Source of the DNA: Paragemmobacter amnigenus | GTDB taxonomy: Bacteria; Pseudomonadota; Alphaproteobacteria; Rhodobacterales; Rhodobacteraceae | NCBI RefSeq assembly: GCF_009908265.2 | Contig: NZ_JAAATX020000002.1 | Location: 186,001 to 250,000, forward strand | Direction of reading: 5' to 3' | DNA: 64,000 bases | Shown here: positions 2,336-51,713 of the stretch, in pieces | Layout: the number at the start of each line of letters is the position of its first letter | Numbering within the stretch: the first letter of the stretch is position 1 | Made by a program: the position numbers and the translations under genes | Notes under the pieces: generated by a model | What the model saw: only the letters and a program-made list of their open reading frames with translations | Database searches by the model: none | What the model was told of the DNA's origin: nothing

Positions 2336-3165
2336 TGGCGGGTCACCCGGAGCATGCGGTCAAGAAGGATGGCGACGACGACGATGATGAAGCCGGATTC
2401 GAAGCCGAGCGCGGTGTTGACCGAGTTCAGCGCCCGCACCACCGGCACGCCGAGGCCGTTCGCGCCGACGAGGGCCGCGATCACGACCATCGACAGCGAC
2501 AGCATGATGGTCTGGTTCAGGCCCGCCATGATTTGCGGGAAGGCGTAGGGAAGTTCGACCTTCCACAGCCGCTGGCGCGGGGTGGCGCCGAAGGCGGTGG
2601 CGGCCTCCAACAGGGCCTGCGGGGTGGTGGAGATGCCCAGATGCGTCAGGCGGATGGGGGCGGGCAGGACGAAGATCACCGTGGCGATCAGGCCCGGCAC
2701 CATGCCCAGACCGAAGAAGACGATGGCGGGGATCAGGTAGACGAAGGTGGGCAGCGTCTGCATCAGGTCGAGGATCGGGACCAGCGCCTGATAGAGCCGC
2801 GGGCGGTGGGCCGCGGCGATGCCGATCGGCACGCCCAGCCCCATGCAGACCACGCAGGAGGCGAGGATGAGGGTCAGGCTTTCGGTGGTTTCTTCCCAAT
2901 ACCCCTGGTTGAGGATGAAGAGGAACCCGAGCAGAACGCCGAGGCAGACCTTCCACGACCGTTGCAGATACCATGTCAGGGCAAGGAAGGCCGCGACGAT
3001 GATCAGGGGATGGGGCGATTGCAGCACCCAGAGGATACCCGCGATCATGCCTTCCATCACCACCGATATGGCGTCGAAAAGCGGGCCGAGATGGGTGTTC
3101 ATCCAGTCGAAGACGGCCTTGGCCGCCTTGCCCACGGGTATCTTGTGATCGGTCAGCCACTCCAT
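2332..3165 (-). CDS. choW: Choline ABC transporter permease
   Basis: Inner-membrane permease of the choline importer, 277 residues with about six membrane segments. The ABC-permease EAA loop is recognisable (ALLEAATAFGATPRQRLWKV region, about residues 190-215), the surface that contacts ChoV. The N-terminal 40 residues are cytoplasmic and amphipathic, as usual in ProW/ChoW proteins. It lies second in the operon, 88 bases after choX; that gap holds a GC-rich hairpin that could attenuate read-through and give more binding protein than permease. Confidence 0.93.
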   Translation of the reverse strand: MEWLTDHKIPVGKAAKAVFDWMNTHLGPLFDAISVVMEGMIAGILWVLQSPHPLIIVAAFLALTWYLQRSWKVCLGVLLGFLFILNQGYWEETTESLTLILASCVVCMGLGVPIGIAAAHRPRLYQALVPILDLMQTLPTFVYLIPAIVFFGLGMVPGLIATVIFVLPAPIRLTHLGISTTPQALLEAATAFGATPRQRLWKVELPYAFPQIMAGLNQTIMLSLSMVVIAALVGANGLGVPVVRALNSVNTALGFESGFIIVVVAILLDRMLRVTRQ

Positions 3166-3180
3166 CCGCAGCCTTCCCCC

Positions 3181-3236
3181 TTCATCTCGGAAACAAATAC
3201 TCCGCGGGGGTCCGGGGGCGCGAAGCCCCCGGGGTC
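3181..3236 (-). repeat. Hairpin plus ATATTTG-type repeat (choX-choW spacer)
   Basis: Inverted repeat CCGGGGGC / GCCCCCGG (3212-3219 and 3225-3232, loop GCGAA). On the minus strand it is followed by GGACCCCCGCGGAGTATTTG and then a GATGAA. A second copy with the same order (hairpin, GGACCC, GG-TATTTG, ATGAA) lies at 13547-13607. Confidence 0.6.
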
Positions 3237-3253
3237 GCCGCGGAGAGGACCGT

Positions 3254-4180
3254 TTATTGCAGCGCGGCCGCGACGGCGGCCTTGGCGTCGCCGCCGTCCT
3301 TGGTCGTCACGCCGTCGAGCCACGGTTCCCACGCGCCGGTATTGGCGGCAAGCCATGCCTTGGCCGCATCGCGCGGGTCTTCGCCCGCGTCCGAGATGGC
3401 GGACATGATCTCGTTCTCCATCTGCAGCGAGAAGACGAGGTTCTGCAGCAGTTTGCCGGTATTCGGGCATTCCGCGACATAGCCCTTGCGGGTGTTGGTG
3501 TAGATCGTCGCCGCGCCGAAGTCGGCCCCGAAGAGCGCGTCGCCGCCGGTCAGGTAGGTCAGCTTGAAGTTGGCGTTCATCGGGTGGGGTTCCCAGGCGA
3601 GGAAGACGATGGGTTCGCCCGCCTCGGTCTTGCTGGCCACTTCGGCGAGCATGCCCTGTTCCGAGGATTCCACCAGTTCGAAGCCGTCCATCCCGTAATC
3701 GGGCGAGTTGATCGCCTCGAGCACCAGACGGTTGCCGTCATTGCCCGGCTCGATGCCGTAGATTTCGGCGCCGAGCGCGTCCTTGTGGTCCTTGATCTTG
3801 GTGAAGTCGGTGATGCCGAGCGCGGCCCCGTGTTCGTTGGTGGCAAGCGTGTATTTCGCGCCTTCGAGGTTGGCGCGGACGGTGTCGACGGTGCCCGCGT
3901 CACGGTAGGGGGCGATGTCGGCCTCCATCGAGGGCATCCAGTTGCCCAGGAAAACGTCGATGTCGCCTTCGGCAAGGCCGGTATAGGTGACGGGGACGGA
4001 GAGGACCTTCGTCTCGGTCTCGTATCCCAGCGCCTCGAGGACGAGGGTCGTGGCGGCGGTGGTGGCGGTGATGTCCGTCCAGCCCACGTCCGAGAAGATG
4101 ACCTTGTCGCAGCCTTCCGCAGCGACAGCACTGGCCAGCGCCAAGGTGGCGGCACTTGCAAGAAGGGTGGATTTCAGCAT
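3254..4180 (-). CDS. choX: Choline-binding periplasmic protein
   Basis: Substrate-binding protein of the importer, 308 residues. The start at 4180 is preceded by a strong Shine-Dalgarno (GGGAGG, 5 bases upstream) and begins a Sec signal peptide ending ASAVAA; an upstream in-frame ATG at 4219 would add 13 non-signal residues. Tryptophans in GWTDI, GNWMPS and LAWEPHP match positions expected for the aromatic box that cages the trimethylammonium group in OpuAC/ChoX proteins. It is the first gene of the choXWV operon and faces betI across 90 bases that hold a BetI-like operator. Confidence 0.93.
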   Translation of the reverse strand: MLKSTLLASAATLALASAVAAEGCDKVIFSDVGWTDITATTAATTLVLEALGYETETKVLSVPVTYTGLAEGDIDVFLGNWMPSMEADIAPYRDAGTVDTVRANLEGAKYTLATNEHGAALGITDFTKIKDHKDALGAEIYGIEPGNDGNRLVLEAINSPDYGMDGFELVESSEQGMLAEVASKTEAGEPIVFLAWEPHPMNANFKLTYLTGGDALFGADFGAATIYTNTRKGYVAECPNTGKLLQNLVFSLQMENEIMSAISDAGEDPRDAAKAWLAANTGAWEPWLDGVTTKDGGDAKAAVAAALQ

Positions 4181-10033: not shown

Positions 10034-10048
10034 TGCCCCATGATCCCG

Positions 10049-10125
10049 CCCCGGACTTGATCCGGGGCCTCGTGCTGCGGAGCGTGGTGCGGGTTTGAGG
10101 GGAGGTCCCGGGTCAAGCCCGGGAC
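10049..10125. repeat. Two copies of a CCGGG-TCAAG-CCCGG palindromic repeat
   Basis: CCCCGGA / TCCGGGG around CTTGA (10049-10067) and GTCCCGGG / CCCGGGAC around TCAAG (10105-10125). The loops are reverse complements, so the two copies are inverted relative to each other. A third copy is at 40949-40969. Confidence 0.7.
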
Positions 10126-10141
10126 GGGTTTTCGTGAGAAC

Positions 10142-10168
10142 GGCCCCGGTATTCGCCGGGGCCTTTTG
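10142..10168 (+). terminator. Terminator between convergent genes
   Basis: Perfect 8-bp stem GGCCCCGG / CCGGGGCC with loop TATTCG followed by TTTTGTC. It lies between the YdcH-type gene (+) and the stop of the ScfR-type regulator (-). Confidence 0.75.
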
Positions 10169-40948: not shown

Positions 40949-40969
40949 GCCCCGGGTCAAGCCCGGGGC
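40949..40969. repeat. CCGGG-TCAAG-CCCGG palindromic repeat, third copy
   Basis: GCCCCGGG / CCCGGGGC around TCAAG. Same family as 10049-10125. The surrounding 255-base spacer (40820-41074) also holds the higBA promoter and is otherwise unremarkable. Confidence 0.7.
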
Positions 40970-43540: not shown

Positions 43541-44170
43541 ATGCGTCTGGCTGTGGCAGTGGCGGGGATGGTGGCGCTGGCGGGGCCTGCCTTCGCGCAT
43601 CCGCATGTCTTCATGGAGACCGCGCTGGAGGTGATCCGCGACGGCGAGGGGCGGGCGGTGTCGCTGCGGGTGACCTGGACCTATGACCCGTTCTTCTCGC
43701 TGGTGCTGGTGACGGAGCGGGGGCTGGACCCTGATGGCGACGGCAGCCTGACCGGGGCGGAGACGGCGGCGCTGCAGGGGTTCGACATGAACTGGGAGCC
43801 GGGATTTCCCGGGGATACCTATGCCTTTGCGGGGGAGGAGCCGGTCGCGCTGTCGGGGCCGCGCGACGGGGTGGCGCGGTATGAGGGGGGGCGGATCGTG
43901 TCGTCCCATATCCGCGATCTGGGCCGTCCGGTGGCGGGGCTGCTGGTCGTGAAGAATTACGATCCGACCTATTACACCGAATACACCATCCGCGAGGTGA
44001 CGGCTGGCGGCTGCGCGACCGAGATCATCGCGCCGGACCTGACGGAGGCGGAGCGCGATTTGCAGGCGGCGCTGGCGGAGATACCGGCGGATGTCGATGT
44101 CGAGATGGGTTTCCCCGAGGTGGGAGAGGCTTTCGCGCAGGAGGTGCGGGTGACATGCGGCGCGTCCTGA
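43541..44170 (+). CDS. DUF1007 exported protein linked to metal transport
   Basis: A 209-residue periplasmic protein with a signal peptide ending GPAFAHPH, so the mature N-terminus begins with two histidines. The DUF1007 core is clear (HPHVFMETALEVIRDGEGRAVSLRVTWTYDPFFSLVLV). A calcium-binding-like loop DPDGDGSLTGAE follows. DUF1007 proteins are commonly paired with NicO permeases and zinc-regulated. GGAGGGG precedes the ATG at 43541. It overlaps the permease gene by 16 bases. Confidence 0.87.
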   Translation: MRLAVAVAGMVALAGPAFAHPHVFMETALEVIRDGEGRAVSLRVTWTYDPFFSLVLVTERGLDPDGDGSLTGAETAALQGFDMNWEPGFPGDTYAFAGEEPVALSGPRDGVARYEGGRIVSSHIRDLGRPVAGLLVVKNYDPTYYTEYTIREVTAGGCATEIIAPDLTEAERDLQAALAEIPADVDVEMGFPEVGEAFAQEVRVTCGAS

Positions 44171-45087
44171 CGCTGGCGGGGATCGGCGTGGCGGCGGGGC
44201 TGGCGCTGGTGTGGTTTATGGGCGGCTTCGACGCGCTGGGGCGACTGGCGGCCGAGGCGCAGCGGGCCTTGCAGGCGCCGCTGGCGGGGGCGGTGCGGGC
44301 GGTGAAGGCGGGCGAGCCTGCGGCCTGGGGCGGGCTGCTGGCGGTGTGTTTCGGCTATGGCGTGGTGCATGCGGCGGGGCCGGGGCACGGGAAATTCGTG
44401 ATCGGCGGCTATGGCGTGGCGCGGCGGGTGCCAGTGCTGCGGCTGTCTGTCGTGGCGCTGGCGGCGTCGCTGGCGCAGGCGGGGGTGGCGGTGGGGCTGG
44501 TCTATGCCGGCGTGCTGGCGCTGGGCTGGGGGCGCGAGCGGATGGTGGGGCTGGCCGAGGGGGCGCTGGCCGCGGTGAGCTGGGCGGCAATCGGGGCGAT
44601 CGGGCTGTGGCTGGTCTGGCGGGGCGGGCGCGGGGTGATGCGGCAGGTGCGGGCGGGCGGGGTGGGGGACCATGACCATGCTCATCACGATCATCACCAT
44701 GGCCATGACCACCACCATGATGAGGACTGTGGCTGCGGCCATGCCCATGGGCCGAGCGCGGCGGAGGTGGCCGAGGCAAAGGGCTGGCGCGACACGCTGG
44801 CGCTGATCGGGGGGGTGGCTGTCCGGCCCTGTTCGGGGGCGCTGTTCCTGCTGGTCCTGACCTTCCAGATGGGGATCGGGTCGGCAGGTGTGGCGGGGGC
44901 CTTTGCCATGGGGCTGGGCGTGGCGGTCGTCACCGTGGCGGTGGCCGTGCTGGCCGTCTGGTCCCGCGAGGGGGCGCTGGCGGGATTGGGCGAGGCGCGG
45001 GTCTGGCGCGTGCTGCCGGTGGTGGAGATGGCGGGCGGGGCGGTGATCGCCGCCTTTGCGGCGGGGATGATGCGGGCGGTCGGATAG
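44155..45087 (+). CDS. NicO-family nickel/cobalt (or zinc) permease
   Basis: A 310-residue membrane protein of the NicO/RcnA family with about six segments. It has the metal-binding FGYGVVHAAGPGHGKFVIGGY motif (His in segment 2) and a cytoplasmic loop carrying about a dozen histidines (GDHDHAHHDHHHGHDHHHDED, residues about 172-192), then GGVAVRPCSGALFLLVLTF. RcnA relatives export Ni/Co; versions paired with DUF1007 are thought to import or move zinc. Its TAG stop is followed at once by the first hairpin of the 45.1-kb palindrome element. Confidence 0.87.
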   Translation: MRRVLTLAGIGVAAGLALVWFMGGFDALGRLAAEAQRALQAPLAGAVRAVKAGEPAAWGGLLAVCFGYGVVHAAGPGHGKFVIGGYGVARRVPVLRLSVVALAASLAQAGVAVGLVYAGVLALGWGRERMVGLAEGALAAVSWAAIGAIGLWLVWRGGRGVMRQVRAGGVGDHDHAHHDHHHGHDHHHDEDCGCGHAHGPSAAEVAEAKGWRDTLALIGGVAVRPCSGALFLLVLTFQMGIGSAGVAGAFAMGLGVAVVTVAVAVLAVWSREGALAGLGEARVWRVLPVVEMAGGAVIAAFAAGMMRAVG

Positions 45088-45207
45088 GCGAAATCTGACG
45101 CAGATTTCGCGCCGTTGTCTGGCGCAGAAAACGTCGGGGAGGCGTGGCGAGGGGGCGGATCCGGAAAATGCGTCATTTTCCGGCGCGTTTTCTGCGTCAG
45201 AAAACGC
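45088..45207. repeat. Composite element 1: four palindromes with constant TGACGCA-type loop
   Basis: Four hairpins: GCGAAATC/GATTTCGC around TGACGCA (45088-45110); CGTTGTC/GAAAACG, one mismatch, around TGGCGCA (45113-45133); CCGGAAAA/TTTTCCGG around TGCGTCA (45161-45183); GCGTTTTC/GAAAACGC around TGCGTCA (45185-45207). The 27-base spacer is G-rich. The element begins directly after the TAG of the NicO-type gene and lies before the MATE gene start at 45271. No gene is present here. Confidence 0.85.
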
Positions 45208-45270
45208 TGCGCCGCGCTGCGGCGTGGGTGGTGGCTTGTTCCGGTTGGCGCGGGGCGGTAAGCCGGTGGC

Positions 45271-46647
45271 ATGACGCAACCCCTGACCTATAGGCAGCAC
45301 GCGCGGGTGACGCTGGCGCTGGGACTGCCGCTTGTCGGCAGCCATCTGGCGCAGATGGCGCTGCATGTGGCCGATACGGTGATGATGGGCTGGTATGGCG
45401 TCACCGAACTGGCGGCGACCGTGCTGGGCGCGTCGAGTTTCTTTGTCATCTTCATCCTCGGGTCCGGTTTCGCGCAGGCGGTGATGCCGATGGTGGCCGC
45501 GGCGCTGGCCGAGGGGGACGAGACGCAGGTCAGGCGCGACACGCGGATGGGGCTGTGGCTGTCGATCCTGTACGGGCTGGTTTGCTATCCGCTGTTCTGG
45601 TGGTCGGGGCCGGTGCTGCTGGCGCTTGGCCAGAAGGCGGAGGTGGCGGCGCTGGGGCAGGATTACCTGCGGATCGCGGGGTTGGGGATGATCCCTGCGC
45701 TGATGGTCATGGCTTTGAAGAGCTATCTGGCGGCGCTGGGGCGGACGCAGGTCGTGCTGTGGGTGACGCTGGGGGCGGTGGTTCTGAACGTGGGGATGAA
45801 CTGGGCCTTCATCTTCGGCAATTGGGGCGCGCCCGAGATGGGGGTGCGGGGGGCCGCGCTGGCCACGCTGGTCGTGCAGGGGGCGAGCGTGCTGGCGTTG
45901 GGGCTTTATGCCGGCTGGCTGCCCGCGTTGCGGCGGTTCCGGCTGTGGCAGCGGTTCTGGCGGGCGGACCTTGTGGCGATGGGGCGGGTGTTCCGGCTGG
46001 GCTGGCCCATCGGGCTGACCGGATTGGCGGAGAGCGGCATGTTTCAGGCGAGCGCCTTGATGATGGGCTGGATCGGGACGGTGGAACTGGCCGCGCACGG
46101 GATCGCGATGGAGGTGGCGGCGCTTGCCTTCATGGTGCATCTGGGCCTGTCCAATGCGGTGACGATCCGCACCGCCCATGCCGACGGGTCGGGCGACATG
46201 CGCGGGATGCGGGACGGGGGGCTGGTGGGGATCGCGCTGTCGGTGCTGTTCGGGCTGGCGATGGTGGTGCTGTTCCTTGTGATCCCCGCGCCGATCATCG
46301 CGCTGTTTCTGGACATGGCAAAACCCGAGAGCGCGCAGATCGTGGTGATGGGAACGGTCCTGCTGGCGCTGGCCGCGCTGTTCCAGCTGGCCGATGCGAT
46401 GCAGGTGATGGCGCTGGGTCTGCTGAGGGGGGTGCAGGACACCAAGGTGCCGATGGCGCTGGCGGCGGTGAGTTACTGGGGGATCGGGATACCGTCGAGC
46501 TATGTGCTGGCCTTTGGCCTTGGCTGGGGGGCGGTGGGGGTCTGGCTGGGGCTGGTGGTGGGGCTGGTCTTTGCGTCGACGGGGCTGATGTGGCGGTTCT
46601 GGGCGGGGTATCGGCGGCGCGGGATGGTGGCGGGTTTGGCGGGGTAA
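45271..46647 (+). CDS. MATE-family efflux transporter
   Basis: A 458-residue transporter with twelve membrane segments, in two homologous halves (LALGLPLVGSHLAQMALHVADTVMMGWYG in half 1, RVFRLGWPIGLTGLAESGMFQASALMMGWIG in half 2). Family members exchange Na+ or H+ for cationic drugs or metabolites (NorM type). The substrate is unknown. The promoter would lie within or next to the palindromic element upstream. Confidence 0.9.
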   Translation: MTQPLTYRQHARVTLALGLPLVGSHLAQMALHVADTVMMGWYGVTELAATVLGASSFFVIFILGSGFAQAVMPMVAAALAEGDETQVRRDTRMGLWLSILYGLVCYPLFWWSGPVLLALGQKAEVAALGQDYLRIAGLGMIPALMVMALKSYLAALGRTQVVLWVTLGAVVLNVGMNWAFIFGNWGAPEMGVRGAALATLVVQGASVLALGLYAGWLPALRRFRLWQRFWRADLVAMGRVFRLGWPIGLTGLAESGMFQASALMMGWIGTVELAAHGIAMEVAALAFMVHLGLSNAVTIRTAHADGSGDMRGMRDGGLVGIALSVLFGLAMVVLFLVIPAPIIALFLDMAKPESAQIVVMGTVLLALAALFQLADAMQVMALGLLRGVQDTKVPMALAAVSYWGIGIPSSYVLAFGLGWGAVGVWLGLVVGLVFASTGLMWRFWAGYRRRGMVAGLAG

Positions 46648-46670
46648 ATGCCGTACGGGGGGGCGTGCGC

Positions 46671-46760
46671 GTGGCGGGGTGATCCCCGCCCTACGGGTGG
46701 GTTTGGTGGGGGGACGCCGCCCGACGGGGGGCGGGCGTGGCGGGGTGAACCCCGCCCTAC
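46671..46760. repeat. Two direct GGCGGGGTGA-CCCCGCC repeats
   Basis: GGCGGGG/CCCCGCC around TGAT (46673-46690) and around TGAA (46739-46756), each embedded in a nearly identical 24-bp unit ending CTAC (46671-46694 and 46737-46760). On the minus strand the second copy supplies the TAG stop codon (46757-46759) of the neighbouring gene. Confidence 0.7.
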
Positions 46761-47173
46761 TCTGCGGCTTTGGTGCCCTTGGTGATGCGGTCGGCCTTGC
46801 GCCGGACCAGCACCGAGCGCAGGTCGTGCATGGCAAGGAGGAGGGCATCCGTCACCTCGTCCAGTTCCTCGTCGGTCGCGCGGCTTTGGACCCATTGCGC
46901 GGTGAGGTTCAGGTGGTCGATGGCGCGGTGGATGTCGTCCATGTCGCGGCGGGCGAGGGTGGCGGTACGGGCCGCCATCCAGTCCGTGATCACGCGGCGT
47001 TCCTCATCGGACAATGCGCGGTCGCCATGCGGCTTGATGTTGCCGTTGCGGATGTTGACGGTGGCGATCTCGTCCAGCTCGATCCGGCGCTGGCGGTTCT
47101 CGGTATCGACCTTGAACACGACGGCGCCGTTCTCGCGGATGCGGAAATAGTAATCCGGCAGATCGCCCGCCAT
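46757..47173 (-). CDS. Conserved hypothetical protein
   Basis: A 138-residue soluble protein. The first 60 residues are beta-rich (DYYFRIRENGAVVFKVDTENRQRRIELDEIATVNIRNGNIKPHG), the rest helical (ALSDEERRVITDWMAARTATLARRD). I recognise it as a type often found next to aminotransferase genes in Rhodobacterales but know no function. It lies 11 bases downstream of the aminotransferase gene and is probably co-transcribed with it. Its stop lies in a repeat. Confidence 0.72.
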   Translation of the reverse strand: MAGDLPDYYFRIRENGAVVFKVDTENRQRRIELDEIATVNIRNGNIKPHGDRALSDEERRVITDWMAARTATLARRDMDDIHRAIDHLNLTAQWVQSRATDEELDEVTDALLLAMHDLRSVLVRRKADRITKGTKAAE

Positions 47174-47184
47174 TCACCAATCCC

Positions 47185-48429
<1,245 letters not shown>

Positions 48430-48473
48430 TTAGGGTGCGGCCGAGTGCGGTTCAAGCTGGAACGGGGCAGGGC

Positions 48474-48749
48474 ATGACAGAGACGGCGGAGGCACGCCTG
48501 AAGCGGATGGCGATGCGGAGCTGGCGGCGCGGGACCAAGGAGATGGACCTTGTGCTGGGGCCATGGGCCGACGCGCATCTGGCGGGGCTGGATGAGGAAC
48601 GGCTGCGGGTCTATGACCTTTTGCTGGCCGAGAACGATCAGGATCTGATGTCGTGGATTCTGGGTCAGGCCGAGCCGCCCGCGACCATCGCGGCGCTGCT
48701 GGCCGAGATCGCCGCCTTTGCGCGGGGGCGGCTGGCGGCGAAGGGCTGA
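48474..48749 (+). CDS. sdhE: Succinate dehydrogenase assembly factor 2 (SdhE/YgfY)
   Basis: A 91-residue protein promoting FAD attachment to SdhA. The hallmark RGxxE is present (Arg19-Gly-Thr-Lys-Glu23 within MRSWRRGTKEMDLVLGPWAD), followed by the five-helix fold (LLAENDQDLMSWILGQ). The start at 48474 has GGGGCAGGG upstream; the in-frame ORF to 48399 has no support. Confidence 0.93.
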   Translation: MTETAEARLKRMAMRSWRRGTKEMDLVLGPWADAHLAGLDEERLRVYDLLLAENDQDLMSWILGQAEPPATIAALLAEIAAFARGRLAAKG

Positions 48750-48818
48750 GCCGCCTTTACCGGATTTTGGCAATTTCGACCGAGTCTCTGCCCATTGGCG
48801 GCGAGACGGAGGTTTGCC

Positions 48819-49316
48819 ATGACGATGCAGGAAACGGTGCTGGACGGGTCGGAACGGGCCTTTCACGCGGAGTATCTGGAAATGCTGGGGCTGGTGGAGC
48901 GGCTGCACCGCCTGTTGCTGGACGTGATCAAGGACGAGTTCGAGCGGCTGGGTGTGGTGGAGGTCAACCCCGTGCAGGGGTTGCTGCTGTTCAACATCGG
49001 CGAGAACGAGGTCAGCGCGGGAGAGTTGAAGAGCCGCGGGTTCTATCAGGGATCGAATGTCAGCTATAACCTGAAGAAGCTGGTCGAGGCGGGGTATATG
49101 CACCATCAGCGGTCTGACGTGGACCGCCGGTCGGTGCGGGTGCGCCTGACCGAGAAGGGGCGCAGGCTGCGCGCGGTGATTGCGGAGTTGTTCGGGCGCC
49201 ATGCGGGGCTGATGCATCGCAAGGCGGTGCTGGACATGGCCATGCTGGACGGGGTCGGGCAGGGCCTGCGCCGCACGGAGCGGTTCTGGCTGGACCAGAT
49301 CCGCTATATCTACTGA
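48819..49316 (+). CDS. MarR-family transcriptional regulator (LdtR-like)
   Basis: A 165-residue winged-helix regulator. The recognition region is SAGELKSRGFYQGSNVSYNLKKLVEAGYMHHQRSDVDRRSVRVRLTEKG (about residues 68-116), with the beta-wing DRRSVRVRLT. The YQGSNVSYNLKKLVE segment resembles LdtR-type alphaproteobacterial MarR proteins that control a cell-wall L,D-transpeptidase, but this assignment is from memory. GGAGG lies 6 bases before the ATG at 48819. Confidence 0.85.
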   Translation: MTMQETVLDGSERAFHAEYLEMLGLVERLHRLLLDVIKDEFERLGVVEVNPVQGLLLFNIGENEVSAGELKSRGFYQGSNVSYNLKKLVEAGYMHHQRSDVDRRSVRVRLTEKGRRLRAVIAELFGRHAGLMHRKAVLDMAMLDGVGQGLRRTERFWLDQIRYIY

Positions 49317-49496
49317 GGCGCGAAGGGGCGCGACCTAGAACGGGTCGGCGTTCCCAGCAGGGTGTGACGTTGCGACAGGATCGGGGACCGGGGCGCAGGC
49401 TTCGGTTTTTTGTTTTTCGGGGGGATGGAGTCGTGCGGATGCGGCGGGAAGGCTGCAAAGGTTTCCCTTGCCTGAACGTTGCGGCGGGGGGCGCGG

Positions 49497-49666
49497 GCGA
49501 AGTCTGGCGCAGACTTCGCGGCGGAATTTGACGCAAATTCCGGTTCCGCCACCGTTGACGCAAATTCCGGTTCCGCCACGGCGCGGAGAGGGGGCGTTGG
49601 TCCGGGCGGGGGCGCGGGGCAAATTCCTGCGTCAGGAATTTGCGCGGAGTTTGCGTCAAACTCCGC
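49497..49666. repeat. Composite element 2: four palindromes with constant TGACGCA-type loop
   Basis: Hairpins: GCGAAGTC/GACTTCGC around TGGCGCA (49497-49519); CGGAATT/AATTCCG around TGACGCA (49522-49542); GCAAATTCC/GGAATTTGC around TGCGTCA (49619-49643); GCGGAGTT/AACTCCGC around TGCGTCA (49644-49666). A 27-bp tandem duplication (49528-49554 and 49555-49581) repeats half of hairpin 2. The element abuts the TAG stop of the kpsC-like gene (49668-49670). The gene-free region 49317-49667 holds nothing else I can recognise. Confidence 0.85.
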
Positions 49667-49667
49667 C

Positions 49668-51713
49668 CTAGCGACGCCAGAGCCAGGCATGGCCTGCGAG
49701 GGCGCCCTGAAGCTTTGCCAGCAGGCGGTTGGGCAGGCCGGGATGCGGGATCGGGCCTTGTGCGAGGCGGTCGAGGGCGACTTCGGGCGGGCAGGGGCGG
49801 CGGGTGACGGGATCGAAATAGCGCGGATAGGCGATCAGGGCGGCGTGGGCCAGTGCGGCCAGTGTCGGGCGCGGTTGCAGGCTGCCGTCGGGGCGGCGCA
49901 GGCGGCGGGGTGGCACGGGGCCGAGGTCGCGGGTCAGGCCCCATCCGGCATAGAAGGGCGCGCCGAGGGTGGTGACGGGCTTGCCCCTGAGCAGCGCCTC
50001 GAATCCGAGGGTGGAGGTGATGGTCCAGACCTCGTCACTGGCGGCGACGAGGGCGAGGGGGTCGGCATGGTGCAGCACGGCATCGGCCAGCGCGGCGAGG
50101 TCCGCAGGCGGGATCGCGCCGGGGCGGAGGCCCGCCTCGACGTCGGGATGGGGTTTGTAGAGGATGGTGGCGTCAGGATTGGCGGCGCGGACGGTTTCCA
50201 GCAGGGCGCGGTTGGTGCGGATCTCGCCCGCGCCGAGGCGGATGGAGGCGTCATCCTCGACCTGTCCGGGGACGAGGATGCGGTGGCCTGCGGGCAGGTC
50301 GGGCAGGGGGGCGGCGGGGAGGTTGTATTTGGACAGGCCCAGCGCGGTAAGGCGCGCGACCAGCCGTTCGGCGCGCGCGATGCCGCCTGCGGGGGGCGGG
50401 GCGAGGATGAGCCGTTCGAGGCGGCTTTCGCGGGTCGGGTCGAAGTAGAGGCCGGTGTCGTCGGTGACGAGGGAGAGGGGCGGGATCAGGTCGGCGCCGA
50501 GGCCGCGGGAGCGGAGGAAGCCGTCCTCGATGCGCGTGGCGGGCAGGTCGGGAAAGGCGGTGCCCCAGAGGAGAAGGCGGCGGCCGGTGGCGTCGGCGAT
50601 GCGGGCGGCCTGATCGGGGCTGCGGGCAAAGACCATCGGGCGGTGCTGGCCGAAGACCTGTTGCAGGGGGCGGCGTTTCCACAGCCGCAGTCCCGGCGCG
50701 ACATGGCCGTGGCGATCCTGCCGCCATGCGAAGGTGTCGGCTTCGAGCTGGTCCACCGCCTCTTCGAAGGTGCACAGGCGTTGGCGGCAGGGGTCGAACC
50801 ATGTGGGCGCAAGGATCATCGCGGCGGCAAAGAGTTGCGCGCGGGTGAGGGTGCGCTTGCGGCGGGGGAAGGCGTGTTCATCGGCGGTCAGGCCCCAGCC
50901 CGCATAGAAGGGCTGGCCGAAGACGCGGGGGCGGTGGCCGGCGAGGATCGCCTCGAACCCCATCTGGGAGGAGACGGTGTAGACGGCGATGGCCCCTTCG
51001 AGCAGTTTCCACGGCGAGACGGCATCGGTGCAGAGGGTGACGCCAGGGGGCAGGGTGGCGGCGTCGAAATGGCCCGCGCGCAGGCCGAGGCGGGTTTCGG
51101 GATGGGTCTTGATGAGGATGCGGGCGGAGGGATGTTCCTCGCGCGCCTGCACGAGCATGGTGGCGAAGGTGGTGGCCGAGGCACCGGAATGGCGGATCGA
51201 GGCATCGCCGCGGGTCTGGTCGAGGAGGAGGACATAGCCCGCGGGAGGGGGCGGCAGGTCGGGGTCGTGGATGTTGTATTTTGACAGGTCTGAGGCGATG
51301 AGACGGGCTATTCCGTCCCTTGCACGGGACAGAAGGTTGGAATCGTCCAAGGGATTGGTGGCGAGGAGGCGCTCGGTCAGCGAGGGGGCGGAGGGGTCGA
51401 AATGCACCCCCCACGGGTCGATCAGCAGGCCGAGCGGCGCGTCGCCCTGACGGCCGGGGCGGAGCGATCGGAGGAAGGCATCCTCGATCCGGATCAGGGG
51501 GGCGCCGCTGCGGGCGGCGGCGCGTTCGCCGCGTCCGGCGGTGGGAGAGCGGCCCCAGACTGCCACGCCTTCGCCCGGGCGGGGCAGGCCGAAGCGCAAC
51601 TCGTGCCCTGCGGCGGCGAGGATGCGGCGCAGGGCGGGGTTCAGGAAACCGCCGTTCAGATAGCGCAGACGCCGGGGAATTTCCCCGGCGGTGCTGTCGG
51701 CGCTGCGCGACAC
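49668..51713 (-). CDS. kpsC: Capsule polysaccharide Kdo-linker transferase (KpsC-like)
   Basis: A 681-residue KpsC-type protein made of two homologous capsule-synthesis halves, each with YAGWGLT and an R-x-E-D-x-F-L-R-S motif (LIRIEDAFLRSLRPG near residue 73; TRIEDGFLRSRGLG near 400). Each half also has SKYN and a KxHP...VSSQMGFEAIL or ITSTLGFEALL region. KpsC adds beta-linked Kdo residues to a phosphatidylglycerol anchor. I chose the GTG at 51713, 5 bases after the preceding stop; the ORF upstream runs into the wza-like gene. Last gene of the capsule operon. Confidence 0.87.
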   Translation of the reverse strand: MSRSADSTAGEIPRRLRYLNGGFLNPALRRILAAAGHELRFGLPRPGEGVAVWGRSPTAGRGERAAARSGAPLIRIEDAFLRSLRPGRQGDAPLGLLIDPWGVHFDPSAPSLTERLLATNPLDDSNLLSRARDGIARLIASDLSKYNIHDPDLPPPPAGYVLLLDQTRGDASIRHSGASATTFATMLVQAREEHPSARILIKTHPETRLGLRAGHFDAATLPPGVTLCTDAVSPWKLLEGAIAVYTVSSQMGFEAILAGHRPRVFGQPFYAGWGLTADEHAFPRRKRTLTRAQLFAAAMILAPTWFDPCRQRLCTFEEAVDQLEADTFAWRQDRHGHVAPGLRLWKRRPLQQVFGQHRPMVFARSPDQAARIADATGRRLLLWGTAFPDLPATRIEDGFLRSRGLGADLIPPLSLVTDDTGLYFDPTRESRLERLILAPPPAGGIARAERLVARLTALGLSKYNLPAAPLPDLPAGHRILVPGQVEDDASIRLGAGEIRTNRALLETVRAANPDATILYKPHPDVEAGLRPGAIPPADLAALADAVLHHADPLALVAASDEVWTITSTLGFEALLRGKPVTTLGAPFYAGWGLTRDLGPVPPRRLRRPDGSLQPRPTLAALAHAALIAYPRYFDPVTRRPCPPEVALDRLAQGPIPHPGLPNRLLAKLQGALAGHAWLWRR

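Follow-up and report, generated by a model that had tools for sequence, protein, structure and literature searches.

Composite hairpin elements with a kept loop and changing arms at gene ends of Paragemmobacter amnigenus and related Rhodobacteraceae

Introduction

In terminators built from DNA uptake sequences, inverted copies of a repeated motif stand at the end of genes, and this repeated motif forms the stem. REP, BIME and REPIN palindromes are short, intergenic, present in many copies per genome and arranged in inverted pairs, and some BIMEs have been described as gyrase or nucleoid-protein sites absorbing supercoils between convergent genes. In the accessible part of PMC3733652, families of such palindromes are defined by their stem sequence and have a terminal tag; paired palindromes prefer unlike partners, which is termed unexplained there. 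Hairpin-cluster intrinsic terminators, i.e. two or more adjacent hairpins at most 80 nt from a stop codon and mostly free of U-tracts, are presented without a fixed loop, pitch or mirrored architecture in the examined text of PMC8355165, where U-tract-free clusters are proposed as terminators. Ribosome termination structures (RTS) are stable structures just past the stop codon, proposed as translation insulators; the excerpt of PMC7518266 at hand defines them statistically, without a repeated sequence or loop. Stem-loops of 40 genomes have been clustered by sequence similarity, and Rhodobacter is not mentioned in the sections of that study available to us (PMC2267715).

Here, we describe arrays of four hairpins in the genome of Paragemmobacter amnigenus and its relatives. 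They share with REP, BIME and REPIN sequences the short intergenic palindromes, the inverted pairs and the many copies per genome, but the loop is kept while the arms are free, a tag is absent, the tandem pitch is 24 nt and four hairpins make up the array. The DNA uptake sequence terminators are similar in their inverted motif copies at gene ends; in the arrays, however, the repeated motif is the loop. Adjacent hairpins near stop codons and the scarcity of U-tracts recall the hairpin clusters, and the arrays may terminate transcription as well. The position just past the stop codon recalls the RTS, from which the arrays differ by their repeated sequence and common loop. In their position, and probably also in their use, they resemble both hairpin-cluster terminators and REP/BIME palindromes. 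In the literature searched, most of it open-access, we recognised no account of an element with a kept loop, free arms and this layout, which agrees with the original prediction, whose author knew of no described element of this type.

Results

Two composite elements in the window

The window analysed is a stretch of 64,000 nt of the P. amnigenus genome. Element 1 (45088-45207) consists of four 23-nt hairpins and lies between a NicO gene (44155..45087, plus strand; ORF with a match to Pfam PF03824 NicO, E 6.8e-20) and a downstream gene for a MATE-type transporter (45271..46647, plus strand; ORF, Pfam PF01554 MatE, E 1.5e-50). As originally predicted, it starts immediately after the stop codon TAG of the NicO gene (45085-45087), hairpin 1 beginning at the very next base. 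Each hairpin has a 7-nt centre with an 8-nt arm on either side. Hairpin 1 (45088..45110, GCGAAATC-TGACGCA-GATTTCGC, found by the covariance model R1 at G000:C2:231088-231110) and hairpin 2 (45112..45134, CCGTTGTC-TGGCGCA-GAAAACGT) are on the plus strand. They are followed by a spacer without strand (45135..45160), which is G-rich in this copy only, and by two hairpins on the minus strand with reverse-sense loop, reading CCGGAAAA-TGCGTCA-TTTTCCGG (hairpin 3, 45161..45183) and GCGTTTTC-TGCGTCA-GAAAACGC (hairpin 4, 45185..45207) on the plus strand. Hairpins 2, 3 and 4 were matched by R1, too. Since the 7-nt centre adds up to two pairs, the stem comprises at most 10 bp with a 3-nt loop. This maximum of 10 perfect pairs is reached in hairpins 1, 3 and 4; hairpin 2 (CCGTTGTC / GAAAACGT) contains one internal and one outermost mismatch. 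Four palindromes sharing a 7-base core, three of them perfect, had been noticed before, and both statements are confirmed.

A second composite, element 2, is located at 49497-49666. Its hairpins 1 (49497..49519, GCGAAGTC-TGGCGCA-GACTTCGC) and 2 (49521..49543, GCGGAATT-TGACGCA-AATTCCGG) are on the plus strand, and hairpins 3 (49620..49642) and 4 (49644..49666), with reverse-sense loops, on the minus strand; R1 matched hairpins 2, 3 and 4. An extra TGACGCA on the plus strand (49556..49562) belongs to a partial tandem duplication of hairpin 2, and its left arm is unpaired. The convergent gene called at 49668..51713 on the minus strand (capsule synthesis family, Pfam PF05159, E 7.6e-68) has its stop one base away from element 2.

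Nine of the 57 TGRCRCA sites in the window possess at least 6 of 7 complementary arm pairs. In 200 dinucleotide shuffles of the window, such sites numbered 0.11 on average and never more than 2. The pattern is thus far more frequent than in shuffled sequence, and this check, named in the original prediction, did not refute it. Eight of the nine paired sites are those of elements 1 and 2, and the ninth (45341-45359) lies within the MATE coding sequence. The window also holds a separate palindrome family, perfect hairpins of the type GCCCCGG-(5 nt)-CCGGGGC at 10048-10163 and 40949-40969, with the centres CTTGA, TCAAG and others.

Apart from the window, element 1 was found in the gap between NicO and MATE genes at the loci L011, L012, L013 and L163, and partially at L014. 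Locus L008 contains tandem hairpins centred on TTCGAA and TTGGAA instead (L008:3694-3737), and at L009, L010 and L162 the composite is replaced by a palindrome GTAGGATGGGC...GCCC.TCC right at the NicO stop codon. One and the same gene end is thus occupied by different palindromes. The tandem hairpins with TTCGAA or TTGGAA centres and variable arms represent a second kind and were seen at L148:3210-3251 as well; among the 39 fetched loci of the own genome (G000) and the window, L148 was the only one with hairpins of the TTCGAA type.

A genome-wide family

Element 1 belongs to a family whose copies are spread over the genome. The model R1, built from 25 hairpins of the own genome, gave 176 matches at E up to 10 in the 4.14 Mb of this genome, and the best 150 of these 176 matches group into at least 41 places (39 fetched, two within the window). 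All four hairpins were recognised by the automatic rule at 30 of the 41 places and at least one tandem pair at 38. At E 0.001, R1 found matches in all 19 genomes of the genus, with 2 to 173 hairpins each.

For the family, we used the model R2, a 47-nt tandem module built from three genera. Matches were obtained in at least 36 of 295 family genomes (E 0.001, at most 20 candidates scored per genome) and in 12 of 30 named genomes, and they include a palindrome within a called coding sequence (L291) and modules bearing other loops. Among 190 genomes of the class, the own genome was the sole match at E 1e-4. The named hosts include P. kunshanensis HX-7-19 with 104 matches, Tabrizicola sp. TH137 with 72, P. 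ruber CCP-1 with 48, Rhodobacter calidifons with 41 and Cypionkella psychrotolerans with 36 (Rhodobacter ruber and R. kunshanensis are Paragemmobacter in current NCBI naming). The same design occurs with other centres in other genera, mostly CGACGCG in genome G148 and mostly CGGCGCG in G009; G137 has mixed centres and G134 a single plus-minus pair. A comparison of the region 44000-50500 with Rfam yielded three matches, none of which reached the gathering score. At locus L145 (about 3150-3300), an inverted pair of GGGCTTGACCCGGGG-type palindromes lies beside a composite and represents another repeat family.

Layout of the composites

The layout was examined in 117 clusters with at least one tandem pair from the genomes G000, G159 and G150, the places of the latter being fetched in part. 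Exactly two plus-sense hairpins followed by two minus-sense hairpins were present in 78 of the 117, and the arrangement first noticed at element 1, two hairpins, a spacer and two hairpins with inverted loop, proved to be the rule. The remaining clusters are incomplete, expanded or mixed, including one with the order -++, and the order --++ did not occur among the 117. Of 209 distances between consecutive loops of the same sense, 181 are 24 nt and 21 are 25 nt, 202 together.

A G-rich spacer of 27 bases, as had been described for element 1, is not a general feature: the spacers of the 84 complete composites from the three genomes have a median length of 23.5 nt (range 2-163) and a composition of C 0.37 and G 0.34. 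Ortholog spacers are 65% identical (33 pairs) compared to 54% for random sequence of equal composition. The base just outside the composite is a purine at 212 of 234 ends, partly because of the stop codons, and the next position is often A.

Arms change while pairing and loop are kept

By their flanking sequence, 74 orthologous element pairs were defined among three species. The main count comprises 69 of these pairs with 234 hairpins (three inverted pairs and two without common slot were left out); partners were located by the arms alone or by the loop alone, and arm pairs 1-7 were scored. Both sides had changed and still paired in 124 cases, compared to 25 changes on one side and 1 other. 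These are not independent events since the ortholog pairs of three species share branches; 11.5 both-sided and 252 one-sided changes are expected if the two sides change independently. Of 351 tests with partners located at 24 nt by their arms alone, 327 gave the exact centre TGRCRCA and 20 a centre with one mismatch to it. Of 348 tests with partners located by the loop alone, all 7 arm pairs were formed in 326 and 6 of 7 in 21. Both totals count tests and not hairpins because one hairpin pair is visible from both sides, and some bias is left, as a cluster was admitted only if both rules recognised a tandem pair in it.

A stricter set of 40 of the 74 pairs excluded 31 pairs without four called hairpins on both sides and three scored as inverted; its search pattern fixed the loop columns 2, 4, 6 and 7, and hairpins needed at least 6 of 7 arm pairs. 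Here, 67 compensated changes (32 transitions, 34 swaps such as A-T to T-A and 1 other) compare with 13 one-sided ones. At the orthologous loci inspected, hairpins were thus present with arms that had changed and still matched, and the view that arms vary while pairing and loop persist was upheld.

The original prediction had also considered a copying mechanism that rebuilds arms. Most changes do not need it, as one compensated pair was found in 51 and two in 15 of the 234 compared hairpins. Hairpins with three (9) or four (4) such pairs and some inversions leave room for it, and words may be replaced by copying or conversion in these cases. Between unchanged flanks, elements appear to be inverted wholly or in their centre in L119 compared to L225 and L187, in L195 compared to L249 and in L150 compared to L183.

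Neighbouring hairpins avoid equal arms

The 402 hairpins use 42 six-base arm words. None of 201 neighbouring pairs shared its word, with about 17 expected from shuffles that are themselves affected by shared ancestry. This holds for hairpins 1 and 2 (0 of 104, 9.5 expected) as well as for hairpins 3 and 4 (0 of 97, 7.9 expected). Fewer shared words than expected were also found for hairpins 2 and 3 (3 of 84, 14.3 expected) and hairpins 1 and 4 (4 of 84, 8.4 expected), and more than expected for hairpins 1 and 3 (17 of 84, 9.0 expected) and hairpins 2 and 4 (13 of 84, 6.3 expected). With equal arms in neighbouring or nested positions, whole hairpins could pair with one another. The same avoidance would result if perfect repeats were lost from the DNA. 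The arm word GGAATT is frequent in hairpins 2 (36 of 104) and 3 (32 of 97) and rare in hairpins 1 (5 of 104) and 4 (5 of 97); 8-nt centres such as TGCACGCA favour the inner hairpins, too.

The predicted formation of all four hairpins was 0.49 for 84 natural sequences vs 0.35 for 252 chimeras with arms taken from other elements. In equilibrium folding, however, the four hairpins are not always favoured: one or more hairpins stay below a probability of 0.5 in 88% of the 84 natural elements, and for element 1 a pairing of hairpin 2 with hairpin 4 is predicted, which speaks against a simple reading at RNA level.

Position at gene ends

The gene context was derived from a codon-usage gene caller, not from annotation. 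The 117 composites are situated between convergent (48), tandem (58) and divergent genes (11), compared to 19, 103 and 77 for the 199 further gaps of 100 nt or more at these loci, and these counts are likewise affected by shared ancestry. In the own genome alone (n=39), 15 are convergent, 20 tandem and 4 divergent. A facing stop codon is at most 15 nt away in 88 of the 117. For the 106 composites that have a facing gene, the median distance is 2 nt, compared to 86.5 nt on sides where a start codon is faced. Several of the called stops are the TGA of the loop (distance -11). With these short distances and the tandem pitch of 24 nt, the composites have the adjacent hairpins near a stop codon that characterise hairpin-cluster terminators. 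From their sequence, we take the flanking genes to include pyrG, ilvH and trpF-trpB, and one copy presumably lies between trpF and trpB, in one reading direction.

A T-run of at least four within 12 nt past the last hairpin was detected in 10 of 154 gene-end readings, and we do not regard the composites as canonical intrinsic terminators, in which a GC-rich hairpin precedes a U-tract. This scarcity argues against a classical terminator, not against hairpin clusters. That the T-rich 5' arm of the next hairpin replaces the U-tract is supported in part: in 47 of 154 readings one hairpin or another is followed by a T-rich window, compared to an A-rich one in 1 of 154. The terminator scan of element 1 gave one match compared to a mean of 0.6 in shuffles. 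Mismatches on the transcribed strand are G-U in 2 cases vs A-C in 5, slightly against selection at RNA level.

Discussion

The family members lie near stop codons and prefer convergent gene ends, and they keep pairing, loop and the 24-nt pitch while their arms change. We give about an even chance to their being bidirectional gene-end elements, which would end or protect transcripts and insulate translation, a function that we infer from sequence. Whichever strand is read, two tandem hairpins with the loop UGRCRCA would be followed by the spacer and two hairpins with the complementary loop. As the element reads alike from both strands, it could serve a gene ending on its left, on its right or on both sides. 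The hairpins would form in the 3' end of the nascent mRNA of either transcript, where they may jointly terminate or pause transcription or define the trimmed 3' end, as well as impede 3'-5' exonucleases and stop terminating ribosomes from running on. Since a stop codon often lies at a distance of 0-15 nt, hairpin 1 would be covered by a terminating ribosome and the farther hairpins would be left free, which may be the reason why there are four. The arms could drift because pairing is what counts, neighbouring arms would have to differ because each hairpin must fold on itself, and the loop would be kept because its fold, or a putative factor, reads it. The level of action, RNA or DNA, is one that we infer, too. 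The 11 of 117 composites between divergent genes speak against a gene-end function, and full termination would be odd for the copy between the presumed trpF and trpB. The repression of an E. coli terminator a few bases past a stop codon, described in the accessible part of PMC4824070, also counts against it.

Dispersed inverted pairs with a variable spacer resemble REPINs, and the copy number differing within the genus (2 to 173 hairpins) and the existence of expanded arrays and inversions would suit a REP/REPIN- or MITE-like element, i.e. a repeat moved by a hairpin-acting transposase with an insertion preference for gene ends and without host function of its own. We consider this unlikely, since an idle repeat would not need arms that evolve with pairing kept, and since the 74 orthologous pairs among three species indicate long residence. 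Y1_Tnp (PF01797), the sole transposase family searched, exceeded the cut-off in none of the 19 genus genomes (one match was sub-threshold), and a RAYT-linked REP, which has a Y1 tyrosine transposase in the genome, was rejected. So was a GTAG- or CGTC-tagged REP: at most 8 nt from the 234 ends we found GTAG twice, CGTC twice, TGTC once and CCTC twice, compared to 2, 7, 2 and 5 in the control. REPs in general have a conserved stem, which is absent here (42 arm words in 402 hairpins), the loop being the kept part. Flanking duplications of 2-4 nt, present in 6 of 117 elements vs 10 of 117 control pairs, are not above control as would be expected of a MITE or transposon. Somewhat less probable still is a site acting at DNA level, either a cruciform or a double-stranded binding site, e.g. 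one at which gyrase or a nucleoid protein takes up the supercoils that arise where genes converge. It would explain the preference for convergent ends, the symmetry of both strands, the perfect palindromes with AT-rich inner arms and the missing preference for G-U. A double-stranded site, however, would not need complementary arms of free sequence, and composites are likewise frequent between tandem genes, where one stop codon is near (58 of 117).

Compensated changes might arise by mutation, with hairpin-templated correction (template switching) copying arm onto arm and no selection on the hairpin. The 13 of 234 hairpins with three or four pairs changed at once and the 34 of 67 compensated changes of the stricter set that are A-T to T-A swaps and do not pass through G-U are in line with this. 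We nevertheless judge such an artefact improbable: it leaves unexplained why the loop and the 24-nt pitch are kept, why the layout is mirrored, why the composites lie at gene ends and why neighbours avoid equal arms, and with only 1 of 67 compensated changes of the type A-T to C-G the spectrum of changes is not free. Finally, each half has a consensus loop exactly complementary to that of the other, and the two could pair in RNA as a kissing-loop device. The loop variants, however, do not covary: both halves carried a variant in 6, 13, 8 and 8 of 84 composites, with 4.9, 12.1, 7.5 and 7.9 expected, and the same variant occurred in both halves in just 1, 2, 1 and 1 of 84. We therefore rejected kissing loops between the halves and rate them as highly improbable.

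More tentatively than the gene-end function itself, the bidirectional elements may represent a device class common to the family, in which the loop and not the stem serves as the code. Its members would be mirrored 23-nt hairpins at 24-nt pitch with unlike arms, whose loop drifts between genera (TGRCRCA, CGACGCG, CGGCGCG) around GRCGC and is read by a putative factor acting on 3' ends. We regard this wider reading as possible but doubtful.

Since each genome holds dozens of copies and other species have orthologs, natural sequences allow selection on pairing to be separated from selection on the loop and from selection on spacing. The family further offers a way to test why palindromes in pairs prefer unlike partners, the preference reported in the accessible part of PMC3733652; the reason we propose is that equal-armed neighbours would fold together or disappear as repeats. 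Should the loop be read by a factor, the composites would represent a new way of marking transcript ends.
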